Assembly: GCA_902728285.1 (NCBI GenBank)
Contig: CACVBU010000572.1
Span: forward strand, 520,770 to 584,769
DNA length: 64,000 nucleotides
Origin: Clytia hemisphaerica
Taxonomy: Eukaryota; Cnidaria; Hydrozoa; Leptothecata; Clytiidae
Direction: 5' to 3'
The notes beneath the pieces are model-generated. The model was given only the letters and a program-made list of their open reading frames with translations. It was not told the origin of the DNA and did no database searches. Shown in pieces: positions 13,136 to 62,146 of this stretch (position 1 is its first letter; each line of letters opens with the position of its first letter). The translations under genes and the position numbers were made by a program.

Positions 13136-13232
13136 TTTATATCGCTTAAAATCAGACGAATTCATTATGCCGAGCGGACGCAGTCTAGAGTGAGTGTTCA
13201 CTTAGGCTTGCGGAACGCCGGCTAAGTCCTTC
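13136..13232. repeat. DIRS left inverted terminal repeat
   Basis: About 97 bases that run from the ATTTTATATCGC side to TAAGTCCTT. Matched by the reverse complement at 17304-17400 with no difference that I can see by eye. The gag start codon lies 28 bases inside. Confidence 0.8.
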
Positions 13233-13259
13233 TTTCACTTTCGCTGCTCAAAGAACAAG

Positions 13260-14254
13260 ATGGCGGATAAATCCGCTGCACCGAAAGTGAATAGTGATGC
13301 AACTGAATCGAGTAAAATCAAGGGCATCGTAGCAGAAACCGATCCCAAAGTTGGAGAGGAAGGAAGAAGAACTTACAGTAAACACAAAAAGAGACAAAGA
13401 TCTCCTTCCAGTTCATCTTCAGAGAGTTCCTCGTCGGATACAAACAGCACAAGTTCGTCATCATCAGAAGAAAGAAGACGTCGAAAAAGGAAGAAAAAAT
13501 CCAAGAACAAACGTAGAAGGAGAAGTAAATCCCCTACAAGTCACCAGAACGTGAACAACCTCTCTTATTTCAAATGAAAGAGGATGGTAGTGACTGGATG
13601 CTAGAACAAAGACTAGCCCAATATTTGAACGGTCACATCACAAAGTATATATCAGATAAAGATATCTCTTCAATGGTGCTGGAAGAAATACCAGTTCCCT
13701 CTAATGTGTTGAATACATTAAAAATGGACACTTTAACTGACACCCTACTGAAAGAGAAAGGCTACATGGGAACTAAAACCCTAGCCGTAGACAAATCTAT
13801 TTCTCGGATATCATCCAAGATACGAGACATTCTTGCTCCACTTGCCTCAATCTGGCAGAATATTGAAGAAACACGCACTGGCGATGACTGCGAAAAAATC
13901 GACCTCGAAGAAATAGCTAAACGATTCCAACAAGCTATCTTATTGGTTGGCCAAGCAATAAATGCTACCAACTTCTTCAGACGTAAGAATGCGTTGACTG
14001 CCCTAGGTATCAAAGAAAGTGAAGTAAGCAGCTGGTTACGAGAAACATTAGTTGATGACCTAGAAAACAGTGATGGTAAACTATTTGGAGAGAAAATGTG
14101 GAAAACTCTAACAAAACAATCCAAAGCAGCAGGCTACACTTATCTTAAACAATACCTATTTTCCAGACGACTGCAGGACCAAAAAAGGAAACCCTTTTCA
14201 TGGGGCTCTTCCCAGACGAGCCGTGGAGAAGAGCGTCAACACCCCCCCTGCTGA
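13260..14254 (+). CDS. DIRS gag-like protein (two frames that overlap by ATGA)
   Basis: The first frame (13260-13577) is a 105-residue basic and serine-rich segment. It has a long Ser run and then Arg/Lys-rich blocks, and resembles the RS domains of splicing factors. Its stop overlaps the ATG of a second frame (13574-14254, 226 residues) as ATGA. The second frame carries a helical block (ILAPLASIWQNIEE, then IDLEEIAKRFQQAILLVGQ and FGEKMWKTLTKQSKAAG). That block has clear counterparts in the separate gag at 20013-20981, so I call it a DIRS gag. The role would be nucleic-acid binding and particle formation. The ATGA junction could be termination-reinitiation, a programmed shift, or a one-base error. 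Confidence 0.65.
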
Positions 14255-16476
14255 AGGACATGGCTCAAACAACAGACATCCATCCAACAAGAAATGGAGA
14301 GGTAAGAGAAAATCTACCAAACCTGACAGCCCCCCTTTCCAGTCAAGCAAATGCTCAATTAGAGTTTCAAACACACTACCCTGGGAAAATACACCCAGGG
14401 ATAGAAAATCTCCTAGAAGAGATAATAGTACCCCAGTCAACATTGATTGCTGGCAAAACAAAATTATTTCAAAAGAATTGGGCCAAAATAACCCAAGACC
14501 CATGCATCCTGGAGACCATCTCAGGCTTGTCAATCCCAGTAATGGGAAAACCAATTCAAAAGACACCACCAAGGCAAATAAATTTTGACTCAAACATGAA
14601 AGCTCTAATACGGGCAGAGATAAGAACTTTACTGGAAAAAGGGGCTGTAAAGAGAGTTCTTTACAAGCAAGGCCAGGTCCTGTCCACTCTGTTTTTGAAA
14701 GAGAAAAAAGAACCAGGGAAATTCAGACCTGTGATAAACTTGAGGGAACTCAACTCTCATATCCCATACCAAAAATTCAAGATGGAGACCCTAAGGGATG
14801 TAAAGAACATTCTTCAGAAGGGGGACTTCATGGTCAAAGTGGATCTGAAAGATGCATATTTTTCTATCCCAATACACCCACAGTCGATGAAGTATGTGAG
14901 ATTCAGCTGGGAGGGAAACCTATACAAGTTTCAATGCCTAATGTTTGGACTAGGGCCAGCTCCCAAAATATTCACGAAACTTCTCAAGGTGCCCATTTCT
15001 CTATTGAGAAGATTACAGATAAAACTGATAATCTACATAGACGACATCCTGATTGTAGCAAGGTCAAAGGAGGAGGCCATCTTCTCCAGAGACACAGCGA
15101 TCTTCTTATTGGAGAACCTAGGATTCACAATCAACATAGAGAAGTCTGTACTGACACCATGTCAACAAATGGAATACCTGGGGGTACTGATAGACAGCTC
15201 CAGCATGATATTCAAAGTCCCTCAGGAGAAAATGCTAAAATTGAAAAAACTTTGTGTCCAAATGCTAAATCTGAAGAGTTTCCCTATAAGGAAACTTGCA
15301 AGCCTAATAGGGAATCTAATGGCAATAGCTCCAGCCTTTACTCTAGCTCCTCTTCAGATAAGACTCTTGCAGAAATGCATGAACAAACAGCTAGCGAAAA
15401 ACAAACAACACTACGGCTCAATGATGAAACTAGACAACACTGCAAAGGAAGAATTAAAGTGGTGGATAGGAAACTTCTCCTCAGGAAACGGCAAGGACAT
15501 AAACATTCGTCCCCCAGATTTAATTATAAGCTCAGATGCGGCAAAGGGAAAAATGGGGGGATGGGGAGCTCATTGTGGTCAAAGCTCCACAGGAGGGCTA
15601 TGGACAGAATCAGAGAAAAGGGAACACATAAATATCCTAGAAATGAAAGCAGCCCTGATAGCATTGAAAACCTTTATAAAGGGGAATCACCTAAGGTCAG
15701 TACATCTACTGATAGACAACCAAGTAGCCCTGGCACATATTGTGAAAATGGGTCGGCCGACAAACTCTACCCTAATAAGCCTGTCAAAAGAGATCTGGTC
15801 ATTTTTGAACCAAAAGAACATCAGCCTCACTGCAGAATATATTCCATCGACCCTAAACAAGGAGGCCGACTTCGAGTCCAGGAATGCAAAAGACTGGGGG
15901 GACTGGAAACTAGCAAGGCAAACGTTCAAACACATAATGAATGTGTGGGGACCCCCAGAAATCGATCTTTTTGCCTCAAGAACCTCTCACCAACTACAGA
16001 CTTACTACAGTTGGAAACCAGACCCACACTGTCTAGCAGTAGATGCACTGAACCAACCCTGGGACCAAAACCTAGTGTATGCTTTTCCCCCATTCTCTCT
16101 AATAGGGAGGTGTCTGGAAAAAGTAAGGAGATCCAAAGCAACAGTGATCCTAGTGGCCCCAATTTGGACGACTCAAACTTGGTACCCAGTCTTATTGGGA
16201 ATGCTAATATCAAACCCAAGAAAGATAGTAATGAGGGAAGACACTCTAACACATCCATCAGGGGAGACCCACCCTCTAATACTGAACCAAACCCTCCACC
16301 TAGCGGTATGGGAAATCTCGGGAAACAAAAGCTTTCAGGCAAACTATCACAAGCAGCTTCTTCCCTTATCCAACAGTCCAAGGCAGAGGGAACTAGAAAA
16401 CATTACCTGTCAGCCTGGAAAAGCTTCAGCAGCTGGTGTGATAGGGAGGAAACTGATCCCATTTCAGCCCCTATAG
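14200..16476 (+). CDS. DIRS reverse transcriptase and RNase H
   Basis: 758 residues without interruption. Reverse transcriptase: KFRPVINLRELN near 174-185, VDLKDAY near 214-220 and the catalytic YIDDIL at 279-284. RNase H: Asp446 in IISSDAAKG, Glu481 in NILEMKAAL and Asp506 in LLIDNQ, in the usual spacing. The acidic residues needed for polymerase and RNase H metal binding are present. The frame overlaps the end of gag by about 55 bases and the recombinase frame for most of its 3' half, the compact arrangement typical of DIRS elements. The C-terminal 150 residues past RNase H (EIDLFAS onward) resemble the extension found in other DIRS polyproteins. Confidence 0.9.
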   Translation: MGLFPDEPWRRASTPPLLKDMAQTTDIHPTRNGEVRENLPNLTAPLSSQANAQLEFQTHYPGKIHPGIENLLEEIIVPQSTLIAGKTKLFQKNWAKITQDPCILETISGLSIPVMGKPIQKTPPRQINFDSNMKALIRAEIRTLLEKGAVKRVLYKQGQVLSTLFLKEKKEPGKFRPVINLRELNSHIPYQKFKMETLRDVKNILQKGDFMVKVDLKDAYFSIPIHPQSMKYVRFSWEGNLYKFQCLMFGLGPAPKIFTKLLKVPISLLRRLQIKLIIYIDDILIVARSKEEAIFSRDTAIFLLENLGFTINIEKSVLTPCQQMEYLGVLIDSSSMIFKVPQEKMLKLKKLCVQMLNLKSFPIRKLASLIGNLMAIAPAFTLAPLQIRLLQKCMNKQLAKNKQHYGSMMKLDNTAKEELKWWIGNFSSGNGKDINIRPPDLIISSDAAKGKMGGWGAHCGQSSTGGLWTESEKREHINILEMKAALIALKTFIKGNHLRSVHLLIDNQVALAHIVKMGRPTNSTLISLSKEIWSFLNQKNISLTAEYIPSTLNKEADFESRNAKDWGDWKLARQTFKHIMNVWGPPEIDLFASRTSHQLQTYYSWKPDPHCLAVDALNQPWDQNLVYAFPPFSLIGRCLEKVRRSKATVILVAPIWTTQTWYPVLLGMLISNPRKIVMREDTLTHPSGETHPLILNQTLHLAVWEISGNKSFQANYHKQLLPLSNSPRQRELENITCQPGKASAAGVIGRKLIPFQPL

Positions 16477-17331
16477 AGAAAGTGGCCAATTACTTAGGTA
16501 CCCTATTGAAGAAAGGGAAAGTATAAGCACCATAAATGTACATAGGTCAGCCATCTCTCGTTCTATCACACCAAACTTTGAGGGCTTGCCTGCAGGAAAC
16601 AACACCCCATGGTCACCTCTCTATTAAAAGGAGTCTCAAGACAAAGACCCCAGCTCCCCAAATACACTGAAATATGGGATATCGACACTGTGCTCAATTA
16701 TATAAGGGAGTGGTCAGATAATGAGTCACTACAATTGAAAGACCTCACACTAAAAACAATAACACTTTTAGGAATACTAGCACCTAACAGGGGCTCCGAG
16801 CTAACAAACTTGGACATAAAGCTAATGGGAAGGTCGGACTCCACTATTATTTTCCACTTAAACAAACCTCCAAAACACTTCAAACAAGGGAAGAAAGCAG
16901 AACCCATTGAGTTCAGGAAATTTGAAGGGAATATTAAACTATGCCCTTACAATACTTTAACAAGTTATATCGAACTCACAAAAAGATTCAGAGACAGACA
17001 TAAAACATCGAAGTTGTTCTTAAGTTATGTTGAACCACACAAGCCCATTGGGAAAGACACGACAGCCAGATGGGTCAAAGAAATGCTAAAGATGGCAGGC
17101 ATAGACGCTGCCATTTTCCAAGCCCATTCTAAGAGATCAGCCTCAACCTCCAAAGCACACCAAAAGGGAGCAAACATAACAGACATTCTAAAAATGGGTA
17201 ATTGGTCTAACACGTCAGTATGGCAGAAATTCTACAACAAGAACTTTAGTACAGCAGAAAAGTACCAAAACTTGCTCCTAAAGGACAATGAAGCTTTAAA
17301 CAAGGACTTAGCCGGCGTTCCGCAAGCCTAA
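16320..17331 (+). CDS. DIRS tyrosine recombinase, broken by two single-base shifts
   Basis: The SAM-like core-binding part is the C-terminal end of a long frame that ends at 16526 (SSLIQQSKAEGTRKHYLSAW). After a stop the protein continues in a second frame (HRSAISR) for about 30 codons. It then moves to the frame 16609-17331. That last frame holds the catalytic set: Arg61 in NRGSEL, His173 and Arg176 in AHSKRS, and Tyr209 in WQKFYNK. Each frame change needs one base, at an A-run near 16517 and a C-run near 16607. The family integrates a circular DNA by site-specific recombination. The ATG at 16609 is simply the first in its frame and is not the real start. The upstream 14934-16320 part of the long frame shows no domain and is probably non-coding overlap. 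Confidence 0.8.
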
Positions 17332-19580: not shown

Positions 19581-20012
19581 GATTGAGATTGTCTGGTAAT
19601 GGGCCATTCCAGAAAATTTTTGTTACACCCCGCCGGACGACGTGCATTTTTTAATTTTTTCTAGCCTTGGAAATAATTTCTCTTTTCCAGTGGTGGTCGG
19701 AAATTCCGATAAAAATTCATGTTACTTTTGAAAAATGCATCGGAAATTCCAGTCTTTTTTGCCTTTTTTAACTCAATTACCTTGGAAATTCATAAATTTT
19801 CTTCTCTCGCCTTGGAAATTTCGAATTTTACATCAAAAAATCTTGCAAGATTTTATGGTGCGACCATGGGATCCGAAAAGTGGCCAAAAGGCCGCGTTCG
19901 GCCAGTGCCCTTCCCCTTGTAAATTCTACCGAAGAAGGACACAGTCGACCAGCACGAAACAAAATTTTTGAAATATAACCAACTTATTAATCTTTTTTAA
20001 TCTGACTAATCA

Positions 20013-20981
20013 GTGAATTTAATAATGGCCGACAACGAACAAGCTGTAGGAGGAAGACCTGAAAGCCCTATACCTGAAGAAGTTCAACCTCCAGCAAAGA
20101 GATTCATGCTTCCAGACATAAAATCGGAATCAACATCCTGGGAACTGTCTGAGGAATTGGCTGAATTTTTACAGAACAGGAACCAGACCTATCTCCAAGA
20201 AAAGGAACTGGAGGTATTCACTACCATTCAACCACCAAAGAACATTAAAACTGCCACAAAATTGGATCCTTTCATGAAGGCACTACTGGACAAGAAGGGT
20301 CTTCATAAAATTGTGTCACAAGACAACGAAAACCAGAAAATACACGAGAGACTATTTCAAGTGTTAGGACCACTGTCTTCAGCATGGCAAAAAATGCAGG
20401 ACGTGGTTAACGGTGGTGATGAAGTTGAAGAGATTGATCCTGCGACAGTTCTGGGAAATTTGAATGATGCTGTTGTCATCTTGGGCCAAGTGATCAACAA
20501 GGTCACATATGAAAGGAGATTGTCAATACTGGCAGGTTTGAATGACGTGAAACAGGCCAAGAGCCTTATTAAAGACAACGTTGAGGACCTGAACTCAGAG
20601 TCAAAATTTTTATTCGGTGAATGCTTTCAAAAGCATGTGAAAGCAACAGCTAAGGCGCAAGATGCTGCAGAAAAACTCATGGGAAAGTCATCATCAACAG
20701 TCAGAAGACGTTTTCCACCAAATACTCGGCCCAATCAACAGGGCCCTTCCACGAACCACATGCCACGTGGAGGGGTGTCAAGAGGTCGTGGTTTTAACAG
20801 ATGGAACAGAGGTAAGAAAGTTTCATCAACCAAACATAACACTCAAGGACTCACAGGTAGCCAATCAATGGGAACCAGAGAGTCTCAATTTTGTCCACCC
20901 AAAGCTATCAAATCTTTTTCCAGAAAATTCAAAAATACAAAATATTCCGCAATCAGCAGTGCGACACAAACAGCCATATAA
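20013..20981 (+). CDS. Solo DIRS-type gag protein
   Basis: A 322-residue intact frame; the more likely start is the internal Met (MADNEQAVGG) at 20025. Residues 100-215 match the gag of the DIRS element at 13.5-14.2 kb block by block: LGPLSSAWQKMQD with LAPLASIWQNIEE, NLNDAVVILGQVINK with RFQQAILLVGQAINA, and FGECFQKHVKATAKAQDAAE with FGEKMWKTLTKQSKAAG. The C-terminus is Arg/Gly-rich (RGGVSRGRGFNRWNRGKK), typical for RNA binding. No reverse transcriptase or recombinase follows within 1.5 kb. It is therefore either the 5' part of a truncated DIRS copy or a retained gag. Confidence 0.7.
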   Translation: MNLIMADNEQAVGGRPESPIPEEVQPPAKRFMLPDIKSESTSWELSEELAEFLQNRNQTYLQEKELEVFTTIQPPKNIKTATKLDPFMKALLDKKGLHKIVSQDNENQKIHERLFQVLGPLSSAWQKMQDVVNGGDEVEEIDPATVLGNLNDAVVILGQVINKVTYERRLSILAGLNDVKQAKSLIKDNVEDLNSESKFLFGECFQKHVKATAKAQDAAEKLMGKSSSTVRRRFPPNTRPNQQGPSTNHMPRGGVSRGRGFNRWNRGKKVSSTKHNTQGLTGSQSMGTRESQFCPPKAIKSFSRKFKNTKYSAISSATQTAI

Positions 20982-22580
20982 ACAAAACTCAACATTCTCA
21001 CAAAAGTTGTCTTTTTGATTTCCCAAACATTCGTCTCAAGCGTTCCCTTCCACAATAATTTATGTAATTGCAATTGCGGTCAGTCCACAGTCGGGTTCAA
21101 CATATACACGTGTTTTTATTTACGTGACCGAAGTGCCTACTAAAACAATCCGGGGGTAAATAGCGAAGCAACACAGCAGATTATTCGTAAGTATCTTTTG
21201 GCATTGACAATCAAATACAATATATTATACTATATTTCCTTAATTCAAAAATCAAAAATTCATTTTTCATTCGCGAAAAATAAAAATAAAAGAATAATGA
21301 ATTAATATTACATACTAAGACGCCCCCGTCTTTTACTCTCATTTAATTTCCAATCTCGGCACGTGCAAAACGCCCGTCCGCCCAATATCCACCCAATCAG
21401 CTTAAATTCACTTTAATTGTCCTTTGACATTCAAAAAATAGTATTTAAAAATTATGAATTTATAATAATTACAAAAAACAAAAAGTTTGATACTTCATTA
21501 GTGAAATATTCAATAAATTCCTGGTTTCAATTTTCAGTGGGCGTTCTTCTAGGGCTTCGTTTATCGCGCAATTTTTGCGTCACACAAACTTTCTCGGCCG
21601 CTCGTAATAATTATACATTGCCAAATTTGGTTCTCCATTGTCGAGTCAGGATCGATGGTGACGTCACCTAAGCATAAAAAAGAAAGGATTTCGTCAGTTT
21701 TATGCATATATTAATTTGCGAGATATTCTATTCGCCGCGCGAGCGCACTTTTCGTAGACTAGTCGGAGTACTTTCTTTTACTCGCGGGATTGATGGTAAC
21801 TTTTCATCTTCGTTATTTTTAAAATGAAGCACAACCGAAAAAAAACGAAACTTCAGAAAGTTGCGTATTTCCAGTGAGTAAACGACTCTGACAATTAACA
21901 AAATTGATGATGATGATTTTTTTTCGGTCAGGCCAATGTCTCGTATTGGGGGTTCTAGTCTTGAGCCCAAAGCCTACGCAGGATTGCAGCGTTTGGGTAA
22001 ACGAGACAAAACTCTAAAAAAGCTGGTGTTTTGACGCGCTTCCGTGCTCTCGAAATATCGCGGTTTGAGACGCACTGATCAGCGGGCAGGCTAAGGCTCT
22101 TTCTAGTAAGAGCCTGAACCTTTCATGTCAAAAAAGTCCCGAAAACACTGAAAACACTTTTACCTGAAACACCTTTTCTGAACCTTTCATGGTTTTCTGG
22201 GTGTTTTTGGCAAAAACATTTTACCAGAAACACCTTACCTCTCGAGGCAGTGTGTTTCCAGCATTTCCTGTGTTCCTGGTGTTTCCATAAATCAACTCTC
22301 AATTTTCTCCACTAAACTCAGGCAAAAATGCCATTTCCCAGAAACACCACCATTTTGTGAACCATTACATTATTCAGTCTTTTTCCTGGTGTTCCTGGTA
22401 TTTTTCAAGACGATTTTGAAGCTCTTGCAGTGTCCTGACTGAACCAATCAGATAAAAATCGGGTTAAAAATCGGGCTAGAAAATCGGAAAAAAAACGGGG
22501 AAATGGGACTTTTCGATACCGTTTCAGCCAGTCGGGACTTGTTTTATAGCAGTCGCCTTCGACAGGACATTTGGTGTTTA
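20982..22580. other. Non-coding stretch between solo gag and the large inverted repeat
   Basis: No domain in any frame. At 22080-22480 the words GGTGTTTC, CCTGGTGTT and their complements GAAACACC recur many times in both orientations, so that part is a degenerate repeat. The rest (20982-22080) has somewhat higher GC near 21540-21800 with CpG-containing words, which could be regulatory, but I see nothing specific. Confidence 0.4.
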
Positions 22581-22959
22581 TAGTCTGGGAGCAGAATCAC
22601 AAAATAGCAATTTTGCTTAACCCAGAAGGTGAATGGGGTTGTTATACATCGTTGGAACGGAAATTTTATGCTGATTATGGAAACCCGGGTCTTAAAAAGT
22701 CTATCCTGGACAAAATTGCAAACGAGGCTGGAGTTTGCACTCCGTCGTGGTGTTTTTTCGATTTTACCTGTTCTAGAAAATTGCTTACTGTCAGCAAAGT
22801 TAAAGGTTTTAGAATTTCATTTTCCATGCAAAATGCTGTCAATAGAATGGGTTAATAGAAAAAAATTCAAAAATCTCGAAAATTCTTTTTTTTGCACTCC
22901 ATCTTGGAGGACTTTGGCGAAAAATCGATGTTTTTTCTTAAAATTCGTCAAAAACTAGT

Positions 22960-24060
22960 CTATAAACCACTGAAAGTATGTCAAAATAAGTCCAAAATAC
23001 TTTCCTGCTAAAAATACTATAAAAGAATAAGAAATTATAACAAAATAAGGAAAAATCGGCTCAAAACGCTATTTTGCACTCCATCGTTGTGTTTTGTTTT
23101 TAATGAAAAAACGTGATTTTTGGTGTTTTGAAAAAAAATATAACATTTTCTAGCTTTGTTTTTGATCTACGACTGGAACTGGAAACCCTTTCTTTCTCTT
23201 AGAATCATTTTTATCCAACACAAAATGATAAAATATTCTGAAAAATGACCCTCCTTCGCTGGGGTTTTAAGTCAAATTCAGTATTTTGTAAGCCAAAATT
23301 CAGTATTTTTACTTACAATTCGTCAAAAACTAGTCCATAAACCACTGAAATTGTGTCAAAGTAAGTCCAAAAATACTTTCCTGCAAAAAATACTATCAAA
23401 GAATAAGAAATTATAACAAAATAAAGAAAAATCGGCTCAAAACGCTATTTTGCACTCCCCCGTTGGTGTTTTTATTGAAAAAATGAGATTTTTGGTGTTT
23501 TTGAAAAAAATATAACATTTTCTAGCTTTTCCTTTGATCTACGACTGGAAATCCTATCTTTCTCCTATCTTTCTCTTGGCATCATTTTTATCCAACACAA
23601 AATGCTAAAATATTCTGAAAAATGACCCTCCTTCGCTGGGGTTTTAAGTCAAAATTCAGTAATTTTAAGTCAAAATTCAGTATTTTTGCTAAAAAATTCA
23701 TCAAAAACTAGTCTATAAACCACTGAAATTGTCTCAAAATAAGTCCAAAAATACTTCCCTGTTAAAATGTTTATAAACGAAAGAAGTATAGGAAATAGAA
23801 AAGAGGGCTCCAAACGCTATTTTGCACTCCTCCGTTGGCGTTTTCATTGAAAAACAGGATTTTTGGTGTTTTTGAAGAAAATATAACATTATTATTTAGG
23901 TTTTCCTTTGATTTACGAAGCTGGAAATCCTGTGTTTTCTCCTAGAATCATTTTTTCCAACACATATGCAAAAAGAATCTGAATAAATCACCCTCCTTCG
24001 CTGGGTGTTAGGCCAAAGTTTAGTATCTTTGCTTAAATTTCATTAAAAACTAGTTATTAT
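22960..24060 (+). repeat. Left-arm tandem array, three units
   Basis: The landmark CGGCTCAAAACGCTATTTTG occurs at 23057 and 23433, and in diverged form (GGGCTCCAAACGCTATTTTG) at about 23805. Spacing is 376 and about 372 bp. Units are diverged, more so towards the centre. Confidence 0.75.
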
Positions 24061-24063
24061 CCA

Positions 24064-24300
24064 TTGAAATCGTGCTTAAGTGAGCTTTTTAAAGTCACAG
24101 AGGTTCAAAATGTTCCAACTTGGACCGGCTGCCGGAAAATTTTGCTACTGAAACTGTCTTCTCCAACAATCATCGGGAATGGTCGTTCGCTCCTTGCATC
24201 ACTGACTGATGCTGATGAAGTCTACAATATCTTGATCAATTTGGGGAAGATCCTACGTAATCTAGGACAACAAGATCAATGTGTTACCATTGACCGTTGA
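24064..24300 (+). CDS. Small coding-like fragment in the unique centre of the inverted-repeat element
   Basis: 78 codons without a clear start context. The stretch GNGRSLLASLTDADEV followed by LINLGKILRNLGQQDQ looks protein-like. It recalls, from memory only, a large uncharacterised family of cnidarian proteins in which a similar segment precedes a CVTID or VVFDQ block. An AG at 24102 (CACAG before AGGTTCAAAATG) could be a splice acceptor. It may be a captured gene fragment. The function is unknown. Confidence 0.3.
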   Translation: MKSCLSELFKVTEVQNVPTWTGCRKILLLKLSSPTIIGNGRSLLASLTDADEVYNILINLGKILRNLGQQDQCVTIDR

Positions 24301-25569
24301 CGAGCTCTTGTAAAACCTTGTGGGGCATGCCCCAGCTTCAAAATATGCATGGGCGGGTTTTTATAGAGTGATGAAGAAGCACTTTTATGATATGAGTTTT
24401 CTGCGATCCCACTGTTGTTATTCTACTCTTTTGCGCTTAATTGTAGATGGCGATGGTGATTTTGCTAAAAAGCCCTAGGAAAATGAAGGTTTTAGCGATT
24501 TTTCAGGAAAATTTCATAAAATTGGGGGTATTGTTATAAAATGATATTGAGGGTAAAATTTTGAAAAAATGCAAAACGCCCCCCCCCCCCACTACAAAAG
24601 TACAAAAGAGTACCCAAATGGAACAATGCAAATGTGAATTTGAGGGTTTTCGGTGACATGGTATCGGCCTTTTTCGGTTCGGTATTTCGGTATTTTGTAA
24701 AATATGTACGGTATTTATATTTAAAATGCTGCTAGTGATGGTAATATACCCATAAAACTTCAGCCTTTCGGTATTTTACCTATGGAATTAGGTATTATTT
24801 CCGTAACACTTTCTGAACTATATTCTTCGTGAAGAGTTTTCCAAAAATAGCCTGCGGCGCTAAACTATCTTCAAATTTAGAAATTTACTAGTACGCCCCT
24901 GTTTCAAATACGTTTGGCACTTGCCCGCACGTCCCCGTTGTATACTTATCCAACCGTCATAGTCCTTAAATAAGTGAAAGCTTTGTTTGTTTTACCAAGT
25001 TTTTGTACTAACTTTAACGAAGGTGATGGCATGCGTAATGCCTCATTTCCCCCAATGAACTTAACTGAGAACTTAGGCAAAGATATTCATAAAAAGTAGC
25101 GTTTGAGGTACTTAGTTTTCATAAAAAAATCAGTCCAAAACATGGTGTAAAAATCGAAATTTTCTCCTGTCCCCGAAAACTACGGTTGCGACTCCTCCGT
25201 CACGAAAACCTCAGTTCCTCGATACTACGTCGAAATTAAGTCATTCTTTTACTATATGCTGTGATCGGAAAATGTAAACTAAAACTACTACTACTACGTT
25301 TGAGTTACGACATTACGTCATTCAGATCCCGCATTCATTCGTTTTGAAAGTCTCAGCAGTTATTAATGCTCAAAACTTATTTCAACAATATTTTTTGCAG
25401 CTTAAACGCCTTATTTCCTCCATTAAGCGCCACCATACCACCCTCTTGTAAGCGCCGTAACTAAGGTTTAAGTTTCGAAATAAGCGCGCACCTCCCAATG
25501 CGGCTGGAAAGTGAAGAATCTTAAATAGCAATTTCGTCCTAAAAACCCAGGCAAAGGAGAGCGATTTTT
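24301..25569. other. Unique centre of the inverted-repeat element, otherwise empty
   Basis: Holds a C13 run at about 24575, a stretch rich in CGGTATTT words (24660-24800) that may be a small repeat, and no recognisable coding sequence. Confidence 0.4.
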
Positions 25570-27490
25570 CATGGAGGAGTGCAAAATAGCGTTTTGGGCC
25601 CACGTGTCTTTTTTCTATACTTCATTCTTTTAAAATCATTTAGCAGGGAAATATTTTTGGACTTACGTACTTTGACACAATTTCAGTGGTTTATAGACTA
25701 GTTTTTGATGAATTTTTTAGTAAAAATACTGAAATTTGACTTAAAATTACTGAATTTTGACTTAAAACCCCAGCGAAGGAGGGTCATTTTTCAGAATATT
25801 TTAGCAATTTGTGTTGGATAAAAATGATTCCAAGAGAAAGATAGGATTTCCAGTCGTAGATCAAAGGAAAAGCTAGAAAATGTTATATTTTTTTCAAAAA
25901 CACCAAAAATCATGTTTTTTCAATAAAAACACCAACGGGGGAGTGCAAAATAGCGTTTTAAGCCGATTTTTCTTTATTTTGTTATACTTTCTTATTCTTT
26001 TATAGTATTTTTAGCAGGAAAGTATTTTTGGACTTATTTTGACATAATTTCAGTGGTTTATAGACTAGTTTTTGATGAATTGTAAGTAAAAATACTGAAT
26101 TTTGACTTAAAATTACTGAATTTTGACTTGAACCCCAGCGAAGGAGGGTCATTTTTCAGAATATTTCAGCATTTTGTGTTGGATAAAAATGATTCCAAGA
26201 GAAAGATAGAATTTCCAGTCGTAGATCAAAGGAAAAGCTAGAAAATGTTATATTTTTTTCAAAAACACCAAAAATCTCGTTTTTTCAATAAAAACACCAA
26301 CGGGGGAGTGCAAAATAGCGTTTTGAGCCGATTTTTCTTTATTTTGTTATACTTTCTTATTCTTTTATAGTATTTTTAGCAGGAAAGTATTTTTGGACTT
26401 ATTTTGACATAATTTCAGTGTTTTATAGACTAGTTTTTGATGAATTTTAAGTAAAAATACTGAATTTTGACTTAAAATCCCAACGAAGGAGGGTCATTAT
26501 TCAGAATATTTTAGCATTTTGTGTTGGATAAAAATGATTCCAAGAGAAGGATAGGATTTCCAGTCGTAGATCAAAGGAAAAGCTAGAAAATGTTATATTT
26601 TTTTCAAAAACACCAAAAATCACGTTTTTTCATTAAAAACACCAACGGGGGAGTGCAAAATAGCGTTTTGAGCCGATTTTTCCTTATTTTGTTATATTTT
26701 CTTATTCTTTTTTAGTATTTTTAGCAGGAAAGTATTTTTGGACTTATTTTGACATAATTTCAGTGGTTTATAGACTAGTTTTTGATGAATTTTAAGTAAA
26801 AATACTGAATTTTGACTTAAAATTACTGAATTTTGACTTGAACCCCAGCGAAGGAGGGTCATTTTTCAGAATATTTCAGCATTTTGTGTTGGATAAAAAT
26901 GATTCCAAGAGAAAGATAGAATTTCCAGTCGTAGATCAAAGGAAAAGCTAGAAAATGTTATATTTTTTTCAAAAACACCAAAAATCTCGTTTTTTTCAAT
27001 AATAACACCAACGGGGGAGTGCAAAATAGCGTTTTAACCCGATTTTTCTTTATTTTGTTATACTTTCTTATTCTTTTATAGTATTTTTAGCAGGAAAGTA
27101 TTTTTGGACTTATTTTGACATAATTTCAGTGTTTTATAGACTAGTTTTTGATGAATTTTAAGTAAAAATACTGAATTTTGACTTAAAATCCCAACGAAGG
27201 AGGGTCATTATTCAGAATATTTTAGCATTTTGTGTTGGATAAAAATGATTCCAAGAGAAGGATAGGATTTCCAGTCGTAGATCAAAGGAAAAGCTAGAAA
27301 ATGTTATATTTTTTTCAAAAACACCAAAAATCACGATTTTTCATTAAAAACACCAACGGGGGAGTGCAAAATAGCGTTTTGAGCCGATTTTTCCTTATTT
27401 TGTTATATTTTCTTATTCTTTTTTAGTATTTTTAGCAGGAAAGTATTTTTGGACTTATTTTGACATAATTTCAAGTGGTTTATAGACTAG
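25570..27490 (-). repeat. Right-arm tandem array with alternating 365/345-bp units
   Basis: The landmark GCCGATTTTT (or its variant) lies at 25962, 26327, 26672, 27038 and 27383, with an outer diverged unit near 25598. Spacings are 364, 365, 345, 366 and 345. The longer units carry an extra TTACTGAATTTTGACTT copy of about 20 bp. Units two apart match each other better than neighbours, i.e. a roughly 711-bp dimer has been duplicated. Confidence 0.8.
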
Positions 27491-27873
27491 TTTTTGACGG
27501 ATTTTAAGAAAAAACATCGATTTTTCGCCAAAATCCTCCGAGATGGAGTGCAAGAAATTTTTTTTCGAGATTTTTGAATTTTTTTCTATTAACCCATTCT
27601 ATTGACAGCATTTTGCACAAAAAATGAAATTCTAAAACCCTTTACTTTGCTGAGAGTAAGCATTTTTCTAAAACAGGTAAAATCGAAAAAACACCACGAC
27701 GGAGTGCAAACTCCAGCCTCGTTTGCAATTTTGTCCAGGATAGACTTTTTAAGACCCGGGTTTCCATAATCAGCATAAAATTTCCGTTCCAACGATGTAT
27801 AACAACCCCATTCACCTTCTGGGTTAAGCAAAGTCGTCTATAACTCGACATATTGAATTCTGCTCCCAGACTA

Positions 27874-28397
27874 ATGTTATCAATTATAATCTGATAAGTG
27901 CAGGAAAAACTGCTTCCCTTCCCCCTCTTTTTCTACTTATCTGCCTATGGCCTATGGCTATGACTTTTCATAATTTTTGGTAATCAACAAAACCACTTGT
28001 TGTGTGTGGTGAGTGAGTGGTGAGTGAGTGGCCAATCATGAAATATTTATAAGATATTTGATCAATCGGAGTACGTACTTACTGTTTATTTGGCCAATCA
28101 CTCTGGCTAAGAAAAGGTTGACGACAGGAGATGAATTTGTGGCAATTTAAGAGGCAAAGGGACAACCAACCTATTGTGGTTTTATTTTGAAATAAGAGAA
28201 AAAAAATAACATTGAAAATTTTGTGATTCTGACCTTGACACCCTAATGTTTTTAATATATTTTGGCCGGTTAAAAAATTTTTTATGGGGAGAGAAAAAGA
28301 TCTGTGTGGGTTTTTCACACACTATTTTGAGGTACACAAACAGATTGTATTTGACTATGTTTAGTTTACGGGCCAGCACCTGCCAGTCAAGTACTGG
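27874..28397. other. Intergenic, no gene seen
   Basis: Includes a short GTGAGTGAGTG microsatellite (28009-28032). The minus-strand frames at 28079-28379 lack recognisable domains. Confidence 0.4.
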
Positions 28398-42795: not shown

Positions 42796-43226
42796 CGCGG
42801 ATTCCGTCCGGATTGCCCCGGATTGCCACGGATTGCCTCCGGATTACCACGGATTGCCTCCGGATTGCCACGGATTGCCACAGATTGCCTCCGGATTACC
42901 TCTAGAAACACCGGATTGCCTCTAGAAACGCCGGATTCCCTTACTTATTTAAGCCCCGGATTGCCTCTAGAAACGCTGGATTGCCTCTTGGAACGCCGGA
43001 TTCCCTCTTATAAGCCCCGGATTACCTCTAGAAACGCTGGATTGCCTCTCGGAACGCTGGATTCCCTCTTATAAGCCCCGGATTACCTCTAGAAACACCA
43101 AATTGCCTCTAAAAACGCCGGAATCCCTCTTTTAAGCCCCGGATTGCCTTCCAAACGCTGGATTGCCTCTCGGAACGCCGGATTCCCTCTTTTTAGCCCC
43201 GGATTGCCGGATTGCCTCTCGGAATG
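42796..43226 (+). repeat. GGATTGCC tandem array, left terminus
   Basis: More than 20 GGATTGCC or GGATTACC/GGATTCCC words. From about 42890 they form roughly 70-bp composite units that contain TAAGCCCCGGATTGCCTC and CTCGGAACGC. The frame at 42787-43074 is just translated repeat (LPRIASGLPRIAS). Confidence 0.8.
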
Positions 43227-45969: not shown

Positions 45970-46074
45970 TGTTTAAATGAGTGGTTTGACGGAGTTTTGC
46001 CAATCTTCTTTGATTTCTGGTCTCTCCTAGGTTTACAGTCATTTTTGTGCTAAACGGCTTTTATAAATCCGGGG

Positions 46075-46482
46075 CTTAAAAGAGGGAATCCGGCGTTCTG
46101 AGAGGCAATCCGGTGTTTCTAAAGGCGTAATCCGGGACTTAAGAGGGAATCCGGCGTTCCAAGAGGCAATCCAGCGGTCCGAGAGGCAATCCGGGGCTTA
46201 AAAGAGGCAATCCGGCGTTTCTAGAGGCAATCCTGTGTTTCTAGAGGTAATCCAGAAGCAATCCGTGGCAACCTCGTTCCCAGGAGCTGATTCTCACTTT
46301 TCTATAATTTTGATTGTCGTTTCGATTTGCTACATCCTATATAAAAAGCAAATCGTCATGGGGACGAGGTTGAATCCGTGGCAATCCGGAGGCAATCCGG
46401 AGGCAATCCGTGGCAATCCGGAGGCAATCCCTGGCAATCCGGGGCAATCCGGGAGAATCCGGGGCAATCTGGACGGAATCCC
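46075..46482 (-). repeat. GGATTGCC tandem array, right terminus
   Basis: Reverse complement of the left terminus: AGAGGGAATCCGGCGTT, GAGAGGCAATCCGG and GGGGCTTAAAAGAGG units, then short GGCAATCC words to the end. Interrupted by the MITE at 46269-46372. Confidence 0.8.
46269..46372. mobile_element. 104-bp MITE with CAACCTCG ends and 9-bp target duplication
   Basis: Ends CAACCTCGTTCCC and GGGGACGAGGTTG. Flanks AATCCGTGG on both sides (46260-46268 and 46373-46381). The target is itself repetitive, so the duplication alone is weak, but the sibling at 47297 supports it. Confidence 0.65.
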
Positions 46483-57404: not shown

Positions 57405-60400
57405 TCATCTAGAACATGCCATTGCCACAGCGACTCGTTTGGCGAACGATTCTTTCCTTGCAAGGTTCCACTGGTTGACAAAAAATTGTACATAAAAAGT
57501 GAAATGCTCTTGCGTCATCAATTTTGCAGATGTTTTAATGCATTGCAAGAAAGCATTAAATTGCTCACAGATGGATGTGTTCAAGCCATTAAAGCCAAGT
57601 AATCGATTTGACTTGAACACATCAGAACACTTATGTCCATATCCATGGAAAATGTCGTGGAAAAAACGTGTGTCCTGAAAAAAGCCACTTTCTCGGTTTC
57701 GACAATATTCTTCAAGCGAGCAAGCAAAATCGTAAAAAATCTCATACGGAGCCTGCTTCATGTACGCGTATAATGATGCCGCAGCATCTTTTCTGCCCTC
57801 AGCATGGGGTATAATATGATACCCATAACAATGCCCGTGGGCTGGGCAAAACCACAAAAACAAGTAAGAGGTCCCTTTTGAAGTGGGGAAAATTTTTGAG
57901 CACACGTCACTGTCAGGCAAATCATCAAAGTTAGATTTTTTGTCTTTTTTGTCTTTATCGATATCAAACTTTCTGGTTTGTCTTATTTGGGAGCCGTCGT
58001 GAAAGTAATACGCTCTACCATCTCTCGGTGGGTTGTATTTCTTAACCGATTCTGGCTCTTTCGGGGATATATCACAGCTGTTTAGTTCTTTCCTAAGGGT
58101 AGTCAGATACTTGAAGAATTCAATTACGTATTTTTTAGGACAAGATCCTTTGGAAAGCGATGTTGCAATAAGTAGCCAATCGCCTAGCTCTGGAAAGAAA
58201 AATTTGGAAGATCGATGGAACTCTTCAACTACACGCCACAGATCGCCGTTCTCCTCGATTATGTTTGCTGATGCCATCATATCATTCAACCGATCAAACT
58301 GGTCCAAGTACCGTCTAGGAATCAGGTTGGTTAAGCTAGTATCCTTTGTCAGAATAGCAAGAGATTTACTGAGTGCTACTTTTTCGAGATTCGACATACC
58401 AGGCTCGAATAATTTTTCTGTGAGTAGACGCACAACTGGGATACTTGAATCGGCTAATATTTCTTTGGTTTTACCCAATTCTTCTCCAGAAAGCTTAAGT
58501 TTTCCACAAAAATGCTTCACTAACGAATGGAGAGCATCGTTGACAACTTTTCTGTCCTTTTTACTGTTTGTGTTGTTGATAAAAGTTCTATTATACCTCC
58601 TTTTATTTGTAGGCAAGAACTCTCCATCCGTAGCCTGTTCAATCGGTGTCACATTGATTTGTTTGAAGGTTATTCCAATTTTCGTCCCATCGGCGGCTAA
58701 GTATCTTGGATTCGGACCACAGCTTGGACACTGTTGGATAAAATCCAAATTCATAGCTGAAGCCCAACTGAACCACCACTTTATGAGCGTGTTCCGTGAC
58801 AAGAACTCGCATTGCGACTTGTAATCCTTATATCTATTCTTCAGGACTTTAACGAATCCAGAAAAGGTTTGTTTACTGGTCATTACCAGATCGACAAATT
58901 CCCAACCGATTTCATAACCACAGGCAACAGTCGAACTTGAACGAAACAAGCTGTCTTCGGAGCCATCGTAACCACGAAAACATCTTTCTGACAAGCATTT
59001 TCGTTCAAACAAACGTGCCTTTGAAGCCCCAACAGTTGAATAAACTACCGTTTCTCCACGAGGCATGATATGACCGTCCGGATATTCATCGTTATACCAA
59101 CCACTCTAACAAGAAAAAGATTACACCTTTTAAAGACGAAATCAATGATATTAAAAGGAACTTCATTGAACTTAAAGACGATACTAAACTTAGAGTTGTA
59201 GATTTTCAGCATTTATATCCAATATCGCCACCCTAAATGATAAGGGTTCCTACTTCTTTGCCGACCGCTTTAAACAAATGACACGAAAGTGAATAACCGG
59301 CGTTTTAACCCCGTTCAATATCTAATAGAAATTGAATTTACCTCGCATCCACAGTTACCATCCTTAGATGGGATCAACTTTATCTCCTGTCCAAGTAAAA
59401 TTTGTATGGCTCTTTTTTTATGTTGTCGCGGTAAATTTCGTCTCTGGAATCATTGACACGCAACTGACTAGGGGCTTTGTCGTGGAATTTCCACTGACCA
59501 TTTTCCTCGTCGAAAACCTTCTCCCACTAAAATAGAAAGAAAATGATTGCCGGTTAACATTATTATAAACTTACAGCATAAAGCCCCCATATGTCGGTAT
59601 ACACTCTAATCCGCAGGAAAAGATATTAGTTAATTATTTCGTCAATATTCATAGACATAGACTTATTTTTCTGAAAACTTCTCTGTAAGAATACGTTTTT
59701 GAATATTTTATAAAAAATTAAATATTTTGTATAAGAGATTTGTATATATCGCTTACAAGTAGAATTTTTAGAAATACCTTTATTTAAAAATAAACAAACC
59801 TCCGAAGGGTCGTTTTCTGTTTCCAAATTATCATATTCCACATCCATGCCAAAGTCAATGTCTTCACTATCTTCCTCATCATCGTCATCTATTTCGTCGG
59901 CGAATTTCAGTGTATTGACATCGAAAGAACTCCTCAGAAATTCCAAATGCGGACACAATTTTTCGGAAGTTTGAAACGTCTCTAAATACCTTTCTCTGGA
60001 AGGTTTGGATTGGCAAAATGAGTTGTGGCATGTGATGACTTTTCGCTTCTTCTTTTTATTTCTATAAATGGTAATTAGCTCTGCCTCGTTTTCTTTTGTT
60101 ACCACTGAAAATTTGAAAACGTTACTTTTTGATGGTAATTGAACAATCGGCTTCTTGATATATATGATTCGGCCTTCGAAATCAACTCTTCATTAAAGTA
60201 GCTTCTTTCTATGGAAGTCTCGTCATTCTCATTCGGCACAAACATCATGGGCTTGATTTTAAGAATATCTTTTGCAAAGCGACAGTGACAACAATTCATC
60301 CCTTCAAATTCCACCGGTCCGCTGATTTCCTCCTCGTTTAAAGTTGAATTCAGTAAGCCGTACAAACTACAGGAGCATCTTATTATCGGACCAGACGTTG

Positions 60401-62146
60401 TACCGATAATCGTGACATGAACGAAATCCTTATCCTAAAAGGAAATGCTAAATGTGTTAAAAATCTATTATAATAAATCTACTCTCAATTATGATTCTCA
60501 AATTCCGATGAGCTAGGATAGAGACACCTATCAACCCTTAGCGGCGGCGCGGTTAGCTTTTTAAAAACTGATAGTGAATTTTCAAGTAAAATTTCTTTCG
60601 ACGACGGTAACGAAAAACAAACCATAGTAGCGCATTTGTGAAAAATTATGATGGGTATCGCATTGAAGCGATAAAGTATCGTCAATTTAGTTAAGCTTTC
60701 CGAATGCTAAAACTAAAAGCAGAGAATCGAATGTCTCCAGAGTTTTGGCGGAATTCCGATGACTAAGCCCAAGAATGAAAAAAGGTGGTCAAAATATTAG
60801 ATAAACGACTATTTACCCAACCTTGGGCGTAGAGTTTCGAATTCCGATGAGCTAAGCCCAAGAGAAAAAATAAAGTGGTCGAAATATTCTATAAACAATG
60901 ATTTACCCAACCTTGGGCTTAGATAGAATTTCGAATTCCGATGAGCTAAGCCCAAGAATGAAAAAAAAAGTGCATGGTTAAAATATTAGATAAACGACTA
61001 TTTACCCAACCTTGGGCGTAGAGTTTCGAATTCCGATGAGCTAAGCCCAAGAATGAAGAAAAGTGGTCGAAATATTCTATAAACAATGATTTATTAACCA
61101 ACCTTGGGATTAGATAGAATTTCGAATTCCGATGAGCTAAGCCCAAGAATGAAGAAAAGTGGTCGAAATATTCGACAATTGATGATTTACCCAACCCTGG
61201 ACGTAAAATTTCGAATTTCGATGAGCTAAACCCAAGAAAGAAAAAAAAAGTGTTCGAAATATTCGACAATCGATGATTTACCCAACCTTGGGCGTAGAGT
61301 TTCGAATTCCGATGAGCTAAGCCCAAGAATGAAGAAAAGTGGTCGAAATATTCGACAATCGATGATTTACCCAACCTTGGGCGTAAAGTTTCGAATTCCG
61401 ATGAGGGAAGGCGCAGAATGACTCCTATATTTATATACCAGACGTTTTAAGACGAGAACCAATGTAATATATACCTTGAATTCACCATTTGTAGGATCCA
61501 TGTCGTTCATCAAAATAACTTGAATCGAAGGAGGAGTTTTTGATACCCTCCAATTCAAACAACCCGTCGAGAAAAGTTTTTCCACGTAAAGGAGGTACAA
61601 TCTTTCTTCCTTACTCTGATGATTAGCGATCGACGAGATATTTTCCGACAATTTTATAACATGCTCTTCATCGATACCAAGATGAGAACAGATGAAAGAA
61701 GTATCAATAACAGCTCTCTTCTTTTTATTGAAAACACATTTTCTTCTTTTTGATGGCGGAGCTTTGATCGCAGGGTCCTCATACAGATTGAGCATTACGT
61801 GGATAGATTTAATGATGCAGCTCGGCGAGGCATTGTAAACAACCGTATTCACGATTCGATTTCTCGGTGAGCCACAAGGATACTTTTTACAAGTGCTGAA
61901 TCTCTGTACGAATTTGACCTGCCGTTCAGTGGGATCGTTCAAAGACCATAGAAAGTGATGATTATTTGGCAGAAGGGAAATGATATCTAGCTGTTCTTGT
62001 AAACAAAGCGGTCCCGTATAATCACTAGTTTGAAACAATGATTTGGTTTCGTTGGAATGCTGGTTTAAGTTCTCTAACTTGTAAAAGTCACAAGGCTGCT
62101 TTCCCAATCGATGCCCTCGTTAAAGGCTCTCTGACTTGATAAATAC
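57405..62146 (-). CDS. KDZ-superfamily transposase-like protein (HMGXB3-like architecture), five exons
   Basis: Minus-strand exons: 62146-61475, 60434-60126, 60104-59800, 59526-59342 and 59105-57405, all with GT-AG borders. Exon 2 has a SWIM-like cysteine cluster (CSCSLYGLL and CCHCRFAKD). Exon 3 has CHNSFCQ and KLCPHL, then an acidic stretch. Exons 4-5 join at DGNCGCE/SGWYNDEYPDG, followed by CLSERCFRGYDG. The 553-residue end piece carries a DDE-type set: Asp126 (LAADGTKIG), Asp446 (FYDFACSLEEYCRNRE) and Glu501 (SICEQFNAF). These are typical of KDZ transposases and vertebrate HMGXB3-like derivatives. Single-base shifts occur at an A-run in exon 4, near 60180 in exon 2 and near 62115 in exon 1. 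No terminal inverted repeats are seen around it. It may be a decayed transposon or a host-retained gene. Confidence 0.65.
60751..61410. repeat. Minisatellite of 88-96 bp units in an intron of the KDZ-like gene
   Basis: Landmark GAATTCCGAT (once GAATTTCGAT) at 60751, 60839, 60933, 61028, 61124, 61213, 61304 and 61393: eight units spaced 88, 94, 95, 96, 89, 91 and 89. Each also has GAGCTAAGCCCAAG, GTGGTCGAAATATT and ACCCAACCTTGGGCGTAGAG. A partial unit lies at 60501. The 142-codon frame across it is translated repeat. Confidence 0.85.

Follow-up and report, generated by a model that had tools for sequence, protein, structure and literature searches.

A 5293-bp element with tandem-array arms

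The window analyzed here, a 64,000-nucleotide stretch of the Clytia hemisphaerica genome (contig CACVBU010000572.1; G000:C398:520770-584769), harbors a 5293-bp inverted-repeat element whose arms are tandem arrays. In our reading, to which we give a probability of roughly 0.8, this element is a non-autonomous DNA transposon copy that has lost internal sequence, would be moved by the protein of longer copies, and most likely belongs to the AcademX lineage. Inverted arms that bear arrays have been described for a few elements, among them Galileo, which has a P-type transposase, and Tetris, for which no transposase is known. In C. hemisphaerica, array copies, a partner with a gene and a sister family without arrays are all found in one genome, which makes it testable whether plain arms preceded the array and whether the units act as binding sites. 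The gene appears to combine a transposase with a domain resembling a flap endonuclease; how such a combination works has, to our knowledge, not been studied at the bench.

The element had been described from the letters alone (the original prediction) as an inverted-repeat element with array arms at 22581-27873, and a self-comparison of 22.5-27.9 kb had been proposed. Self-comparison of the window showed the element to be real, with exact borders at 22581 and 27873, where TAGTCTGGGAGCAGAAT is read at both ends. The two arms pair in inverse orientation at 88% identity over 1474 columns, one 271-nt stretch of this match reaching 97%. The left arm consists of the expected three units (22931-24025, ~343-377 bp each), and the right arm (25573-27514), for which six had been counted, of five full units and an innermost partial one. 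The alternation of 365 and 345 bp noted for the right arm is borne out by a unit spacing of 365/345/365/346, and the difference between 345 and 365 fits a 21-bp micro-repeat that sits in the longer units. The 711-bp dimer is equally clear, its two copies (25937-26647 and 26647-27358) being 98.6% identical over 712 columns, whereas two adjacent monomers are 91.8% identical. The parts of the element and its flanking triplets are as follows.

22578-22580, no strand: left flanking triplet TTA, within repeat family X (flank reading)
22581-27873, no strand: whole non-autonomous element, 5293 bp, TAGTCTGGGAGC...GCTCCCAGACTA; both ends matched, 17-base end 73 times exact in the genome
22581-22935, plus strand: left tip, outer 355 bp, "L type" (comparison of copies)
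22931-23305, plus strand: left-arm unit A1; best matches A1 of L046 and A1 of L036
23306-23682, plus strand: left-arm unit A2 (unit comparison)
23683-24025, plus strand: left-arm unit A3, innermost, divergent (unit comparison)
24071-25560, plus strand: middle, without a long open frame in the window; ~91-98% conserved in most copies
24103-24297, plus strand: transposase gene remnant, 65 codons; matches an exon in the gene of the sister family at 68% identity
24376-24429, plus strand: second short gene remnant, 54 bp; 80% to the gene's last exon
25573-25726, minus strand: innermost right-arm unit, partial (unit comparison)
25727-26092, minus strand: right-arm unit B5 (unit comparison)
26093-26457, minus strand: right-arm unit B4; 99% to B2
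26441-26802, minus strand: right-arm unit B3; 99% to B1
26803-27168, minus strand: right-arm unit B2 (unit comparison)
27152-27514, minus strand: right-arm unit B1 (unit comparison)
27510-27873, minus strand: right tip, "R type", ~10 bp longer than the L type (comparison of copies)
27874-27876, no strand: right flanking triplet ATG, within a different repeat family Y and unlike the left triplet (flank reading)

A dispersed family with the same ends

The genome searched was a 417-Mb assembly of 951 contigs. When the outer 361 bp were used as a query, as the original prediction had suggested, they recurred at dispersed places with at least 40 matches (all 40 of the candidates scored, out of 206). 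The 17-base end has 73 exact occurrences genome-wide (37 and 36 on the two strands), and its reversed control has none. Twenty places of the family were fetched and compared in detail. Copies have a conserved middle between arms that each comprise an outer tip of ~355-366 bp and up to five full units of ~345-377 bp. Of the 20 places, 11 show a near-full-length middle surrounded by tips and units, as does the window copy; one of the 11, L034, has an additional partial middle. The remaining places are gapped, one-sided within the fetched stretch, or altered in the middle, by a deletion in L038 and by inserts or rearrangement in L041, L043, L044, and L048. Arms that fall in gaps or beyond the stretch (L031, L037, L045, and L047), and one arm of L054, were counted as having zero units. 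Unit number, for which a comparison of copies had been proposed, differs among copies, and the combination of long inverted arms of tandem repeats, variable copy number, sharp borders, and many copies agrees with the earlier designation as a foldback-type element.

The two tips of a copy are of different types. Both tips were scored in 18 copies, and 17 of these, including the window copy, have one L-type and one R-type tip; in the exception, L045, both tips are of the R type and point in the same direction. In that copy (L045:4812-6572) the same-facing tips lie ~750 bp apart, as though a tip and one unit had been tandemly duplicated. The C38 copy measures 10.2 kb between its ends, as assessed from the ends and a stretch at one side.

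Insertion duplicates 3 bp

Flanking triplets were compared in 25 two-ended copies: 15 of the 20 fetched places, the window copy, C548, L054, L051, L052, C38, C119, C751, C832, and L055. C38, C119, C751, and C832 entered this count as flank pairs, L055 is a sister-family element, and L050 was counted as C548 after joining to its neighbor. L037, L045, and L047, in which one end is absent from the fetched stretch, were left out, as was L041, whose left end has no TA and whose flanks are unmatched (with L041 the count below becomes 23 of 26). An exact 3-bp duplication of varying sequence, lying outside the TA, is present in 23 of the 25 copies, and none of the 25 shows a target duplication of 4 bp or more. 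Shuffling the pairing of flanks 2000 times gave a mean of 1.6 matching triplets and a maximum of 8. The triplets include ACC, CTG, TGC, and CCA. Those that do not match belong to the window copy (TTA/ATG) and to the 317-bp L052 (CTT/CTC), which has both ends. Among sister-family copies read later, L084 matches (TTT/TTT) and L085 does not (AAG/AGA).

Empty target sites were found for at least three of ten insertions queried together (40 of 1381 candidates scored), with 146/147, 145/149, and 142/147 identical positions in the alignments. At the junction of all three there is a single triplet, with zero element bases and no TA of the element. These findings show that insertion duplicates 3 bp and, because the matching triplets lie outside the TA and the empty sites lack it, that the TA is the element's own end. 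The original prediction of inverted, TA-flanked termini thus holds as far as the presence of TA at both ends is concerned, and fails in taking TA for the target duplication; the empty sites that it anticipated exist, but they keep one 3-bp target in place of a TA.

Longer copies carry a gene, and a sister family has plain arms

The copy at C548:286111-293977 is 7867 bp long, has the same ends and tips, and is flanked by ATG/ATG. Its left arm contains three full units and its right arm two. The gene between them is encoded on the minus strand and changes frame several times, which we read as several exons, the last of which is open over 795 codons. L054, an 8003-bp copy with the same ends and triplets TAG/TAG, resembles C548 in its gene region at 91-93%. 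The middle of the window copy retains two pieces of the gene, of 161 bp and 54 bp. L051, the C193 copy, was also considered as a coding partner and was rejected, its length being mostly a run of 6258 N.

A sister family with similar ends is represented by L055, a 7377-bp element whose ends read TAGTCGGGGAGCAGAAT and whose inverted arms, each ~730 bp long, contain no tandem array detected by Tandem Repeats Finder (TRF). Measured from stop to stop, the open frames in the gene region of L055 span 527, 201, 96, and 806 codons, and the sister family's own 17-base end occurs exactly 62 times in the genome. Two further members, L084 and L085, are ~4.9 kb long with 1.1-kb arms at 94-96% identity, and no tandem array was found in L084 by TRF and self-comparison or in L085 by self-comparison. 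The lack of arrays in three sister copies suggests that arrays were probably a later addition to plain inverted arms.

The nuclease-bearing gene also has many divergent relatives at L056-L063 and other places, with identities of roughly 26-47%, and several of them have open frames of 800-1241 codons. Judging from these relatives, transposons of this kind seem to be abundant in the genome.

The encoded protein and its assignment

As assessed by eye, the protein has a Cys/His-rich start and a middle that resembles a DDE transposase, which we treat as putative. In the last exon, D370, D412, K421, R425, and R428 are invariant in ten proteins of the genome, as are E510-E511-A512-D513, D538, D540, G599, D601, and K611, in an order that we take to be the motif order of FEN1/XPG nucleases. 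An AlphaFold model of this exon is of low confidence as a whole, with a mean predicted local distance difference test score (pLDDT) of 56.8, but 28 of the 37 ten-residue blocks between residues 361 and 730 are at 75 or above. Foldseek returned six matches at E ≤ 0.001 (best E 9.4e-5), a bacterial flap endonuclease, T5 Fen, and Rad2/XPG coming first, followed at E 0.001-0.02 by Xrn1, exonuclease 1, archaeal FEN-1, GEN1, and human XPG. The last exon is therefore predicted to encode a C-terminal FEN1/XPG-like nuclease. Pfam scans of the gene pieces contained no helicase, no THAP or P-type family, and no PIF/Harbinger family, and a PDB sequence search with the gene gave no match above threshold. 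Weak Pfam matches below threshold include zf-RING-like in the gene pieces and DUF6589 in a paralog.

The nuclease of AcademX is XPG-like, in contrast to the helicase of AcademH. One paper gives AcademX elements 3- or 4-bp target duplications and an encoded nuclease (PMC10045372), and the present family is similar in its 3-bp duplication and its own nuclease (FEN/XPG-like fold predicted) and differs in having tandem arrays as arms. On the strength of the 3-bp duplication and the predicted nuclease in the longer copies, the element probably belongs to the AcademX branch of Academ. Its copies would then move by cut-and-paste, using the protein encoded by the longer ones. The original prediction knew no named family with these ends; this is partly answered, in that the gene-bearing copies point to the AcademX lineage as that paper describes it. 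No literature joining Academ with long inverted arms, a nuclease, or foldback was found, in a search that mostly did not extend to subscription journals.

Several observations weigh against this reading. In-frame stops occur in the gene region of both C548, in its earlier part, and L054, which holds more of them, and the arms of L054 are eroded, with one full unit left and a left tip interrupted by ~1.3 kb. Matching triplets are missing from the window copy, the short L052, L041, and the sister copy L085. The relation to nucleases is remote, since target-normalized template modeling scores of the Foldseek matches are mostly 0.35-0.52 with root mean square deviations of 7-23. As regards the DDE domain, the model of a 1053-residue single-frame paralog gave no Foldseek match at E ≤ 0.001; this model holds much low-confidence sequence, and its conserved D and E candidates were picked by eye. 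Pfam named no transposase in the gene pieces, with no match above threshold. Finally, placement in AcademX is judged against the description in one paper (PMC10045372).

Among the alternatives, an element of another superfamily with a 3-bp duplication (PIF/Harbinger, CACTA, or Zator) or of the P/Galileo group, with convergent arms, strikes us as unlikely. The literature does report a 3-bp duplication for Zator (PMC10045372) and PIF/Harbinger (PMC2213677), and array arms for Galileo (PMC3688188) and Tetris (PMC4079207). However, no Pfam transposase of the PIF/Harbinger, CACTA, Zator, or P groups was found in the gene pieces. In addition, we know of no FEN/XPG-like nuclease in any of these groups. 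Target duplications of P/Galileo elements are 7-8 bp long, as opposed to 3 bp here, and Galileo has a P-type transposase with a THAP domain. PIF/Harbinger elements have their own DDE transposase and typically duplicate TWA, which triplets such as ACC, CTG, TGC, and CCA do not fit.

The two remaining alternatives are refuted by the insertion sites. The supposed TA duplication implied a foldback element of the Tc1/mariner type or of another type that inserts at TA. This would explain why nearly all listed ends read TA followed by GTCTGGG (the left end of L041 differs), but matching triplets lie outside this TA in 23 of 25 copies and the empty sites hold one 3-bp target without it, which makes such an element highly improbable. 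Least credible of all is an immobile tandem satellite locus with chance inverted blocks: although the regular unit length and the higher-order dimer would favor it, the same border recurs at 73 places, with 3-bp duplications and empty sites. A unit search of the genome reported 137 matches (40 of 92 candidates scored), among which there is no array of more than five full units and no free satellite form; five full units are reached in the right arm of the window copy and in one arm of L040. As judged by eye, the reported matches lie where element ends occur, except for C133:1716059-1716764, which is near a fragment of the gene. The one long satellite locus that the original prediction had considered as a contrary outcome is thus replaced by a dispersed unit in arrays of at most five full units among the reported matches.

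Origin of the arrays and a candidate binding motif

The element resembles two Drosophila systems in its architecture. Galileo, of the P superfamily, has long inverted arms with internal tandem repeats, as in the window element. These hold extra transposase binding sites, and of the four repeats that make up its arm, two contain such sites (PMC3688188); ectopic recombination between its copies produced inversions (PMC4168063, PMC3688188). It differs from the element described here, which has a predicted XPG-like nuclease and a 3-bp duplication. Tetris, of Drosophila virilis, has arms that consist of an outer flanking domain and ~220-bp units in varying number, with the flanking domain as the presumed source of the units and with unit duplication within a copy (PMC4079207). 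The outer tip, variable unit number, and within-copy duplication are shared with our family. For Tetris, however, no transposase-bearing partner was found and the units also form long satellite arrays (PMC4079207), whereas here there are gene-bearing partners and long satellite arrays were not seen among the scored unit matches.

A nearest-neighbor comparison was made of 101 units from gene-less copies, leaving out units with fewer than ~300 matched positions. For 80 units the nearest neighbor belongs to another copy and to the same arm, in 46 cases also to the same position; for the others it lies in the other arm of another copy (10), the same arm of the same copy (7), or the other arm of the same copy (4). 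The large share of the first class suggests that arrays are mostly inherited when copies transpose. Copies have also changed recently on their own, as seen in unit pairs at least 98% identical within arms (B1/B3 and B2/B4 of the window copy, B2/B3 of L036, A1/A3 and A2/A3 of L040) and between arms (A2/B2 of L033, A3/B3 of L032, A2/B1 of L039). The closest relative of the window copy is L046, which has three full right units, and the right arm of the window copy reads as the L046 series with two additional units. This two-unit duplication, private among the compared copies, is what unequal exchange would give. The growth and shrinkage by unequal exchange put forward in the original prediction is therefore matched in pattern (a private dimer, with B1/B3 and B2/B4 at ~99%), from which we infer that whole units may be gained and lost within a copy.

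Full units of the window copy contain two ACTCCnYCGTTGG-like motifs each, spaced ~155-205 bp. Counts in left arm, middle, and right arm are 8/0/12, as compared with a shuffled mean of 0.01-0.03, a low expectation that overstates the surprise, and thereby also counts against our reading, given that the motif was picked from the arms and set against plain base shuffles. For left arm, gene, and right arm, the counts are 5/0/6 in C548 and 4/2/4 in L055. By analogy with the arm repeats of Galileo, the motif is probably a transposase binding site, and its pairs in the arm units may serve transposase binding.

The two halves of the window copy

The left flank of the window copy is repeat X, which elsewhere runs uninterrupted as ...GTTTA|TGGTG, and the right flank is the different repeat Y, elsewhere uninterrupted as ...CTGC|ATGTTATC (three copies read for each). 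Among 40 scored of 186 candidates, no match crosses the junction by more than 10 bases. Given the unmatched triplets TTA/ATG and the two different flanking repeats, the simplest reading is that the two halves stem from two insertions, through either ectopic exchange between copies or an assembly misjoin. Pattern searches for the reciprocal junctions of a two-copy exchange, allowing up to 2 mismatches, gave 0 matches for one pattern and 2 for the other, neither of them the sought junction: one belongs to the end of L044, a copy with matching triplets of its own, the other differs inside the element end, and both were rejected. Since the reciprocal junctions were not found, recombination is unproved and a misjoin via the 5-kb repeat could account for the window copy as well.

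A more speculative scenario, which we rate as possible but rather doubtful, is that Academ-type arms gained arrays of recognition sites independently of Galileo and Tetris and so became a substrate for recombination. The window copy would be a footprint of this process, with a left half from X/TTA and a right half from Y/ATG, and the exchange may have added the 711-bp dimer. If true, the window copy would mark a chromosomal rearrangement.

Other elements in the window

Several further repeats and open frames were noted in the window. An inverted pair of tandem arrays with ~20-bp, CCGGATTGCCTCTAGAAACG-like units lies at 42798-43208 and 46066-46481, possibly a foldback-like element, and inverted pairs with small tandem arrays (units of 10 and ~20 bp) are found at 18017-18085/18369-18447 and 19088-19246/19433-19579. 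Open reading frames at 13206-17331 match reverse transcriptase (PF00078) and tyrosine recombinase (PF00589) domains, perhaps of a DIRS- or Ngaro-like element, and an open frame at 20010-20981, without a Pfam match, looks gag-like by eye. A KDZ-type transposase with a CxC4 cysteine cluster (PF18758, PF18717) is encoded at 57408-59105, and about seven 89-bp units stand in tandem at 60751-61405.

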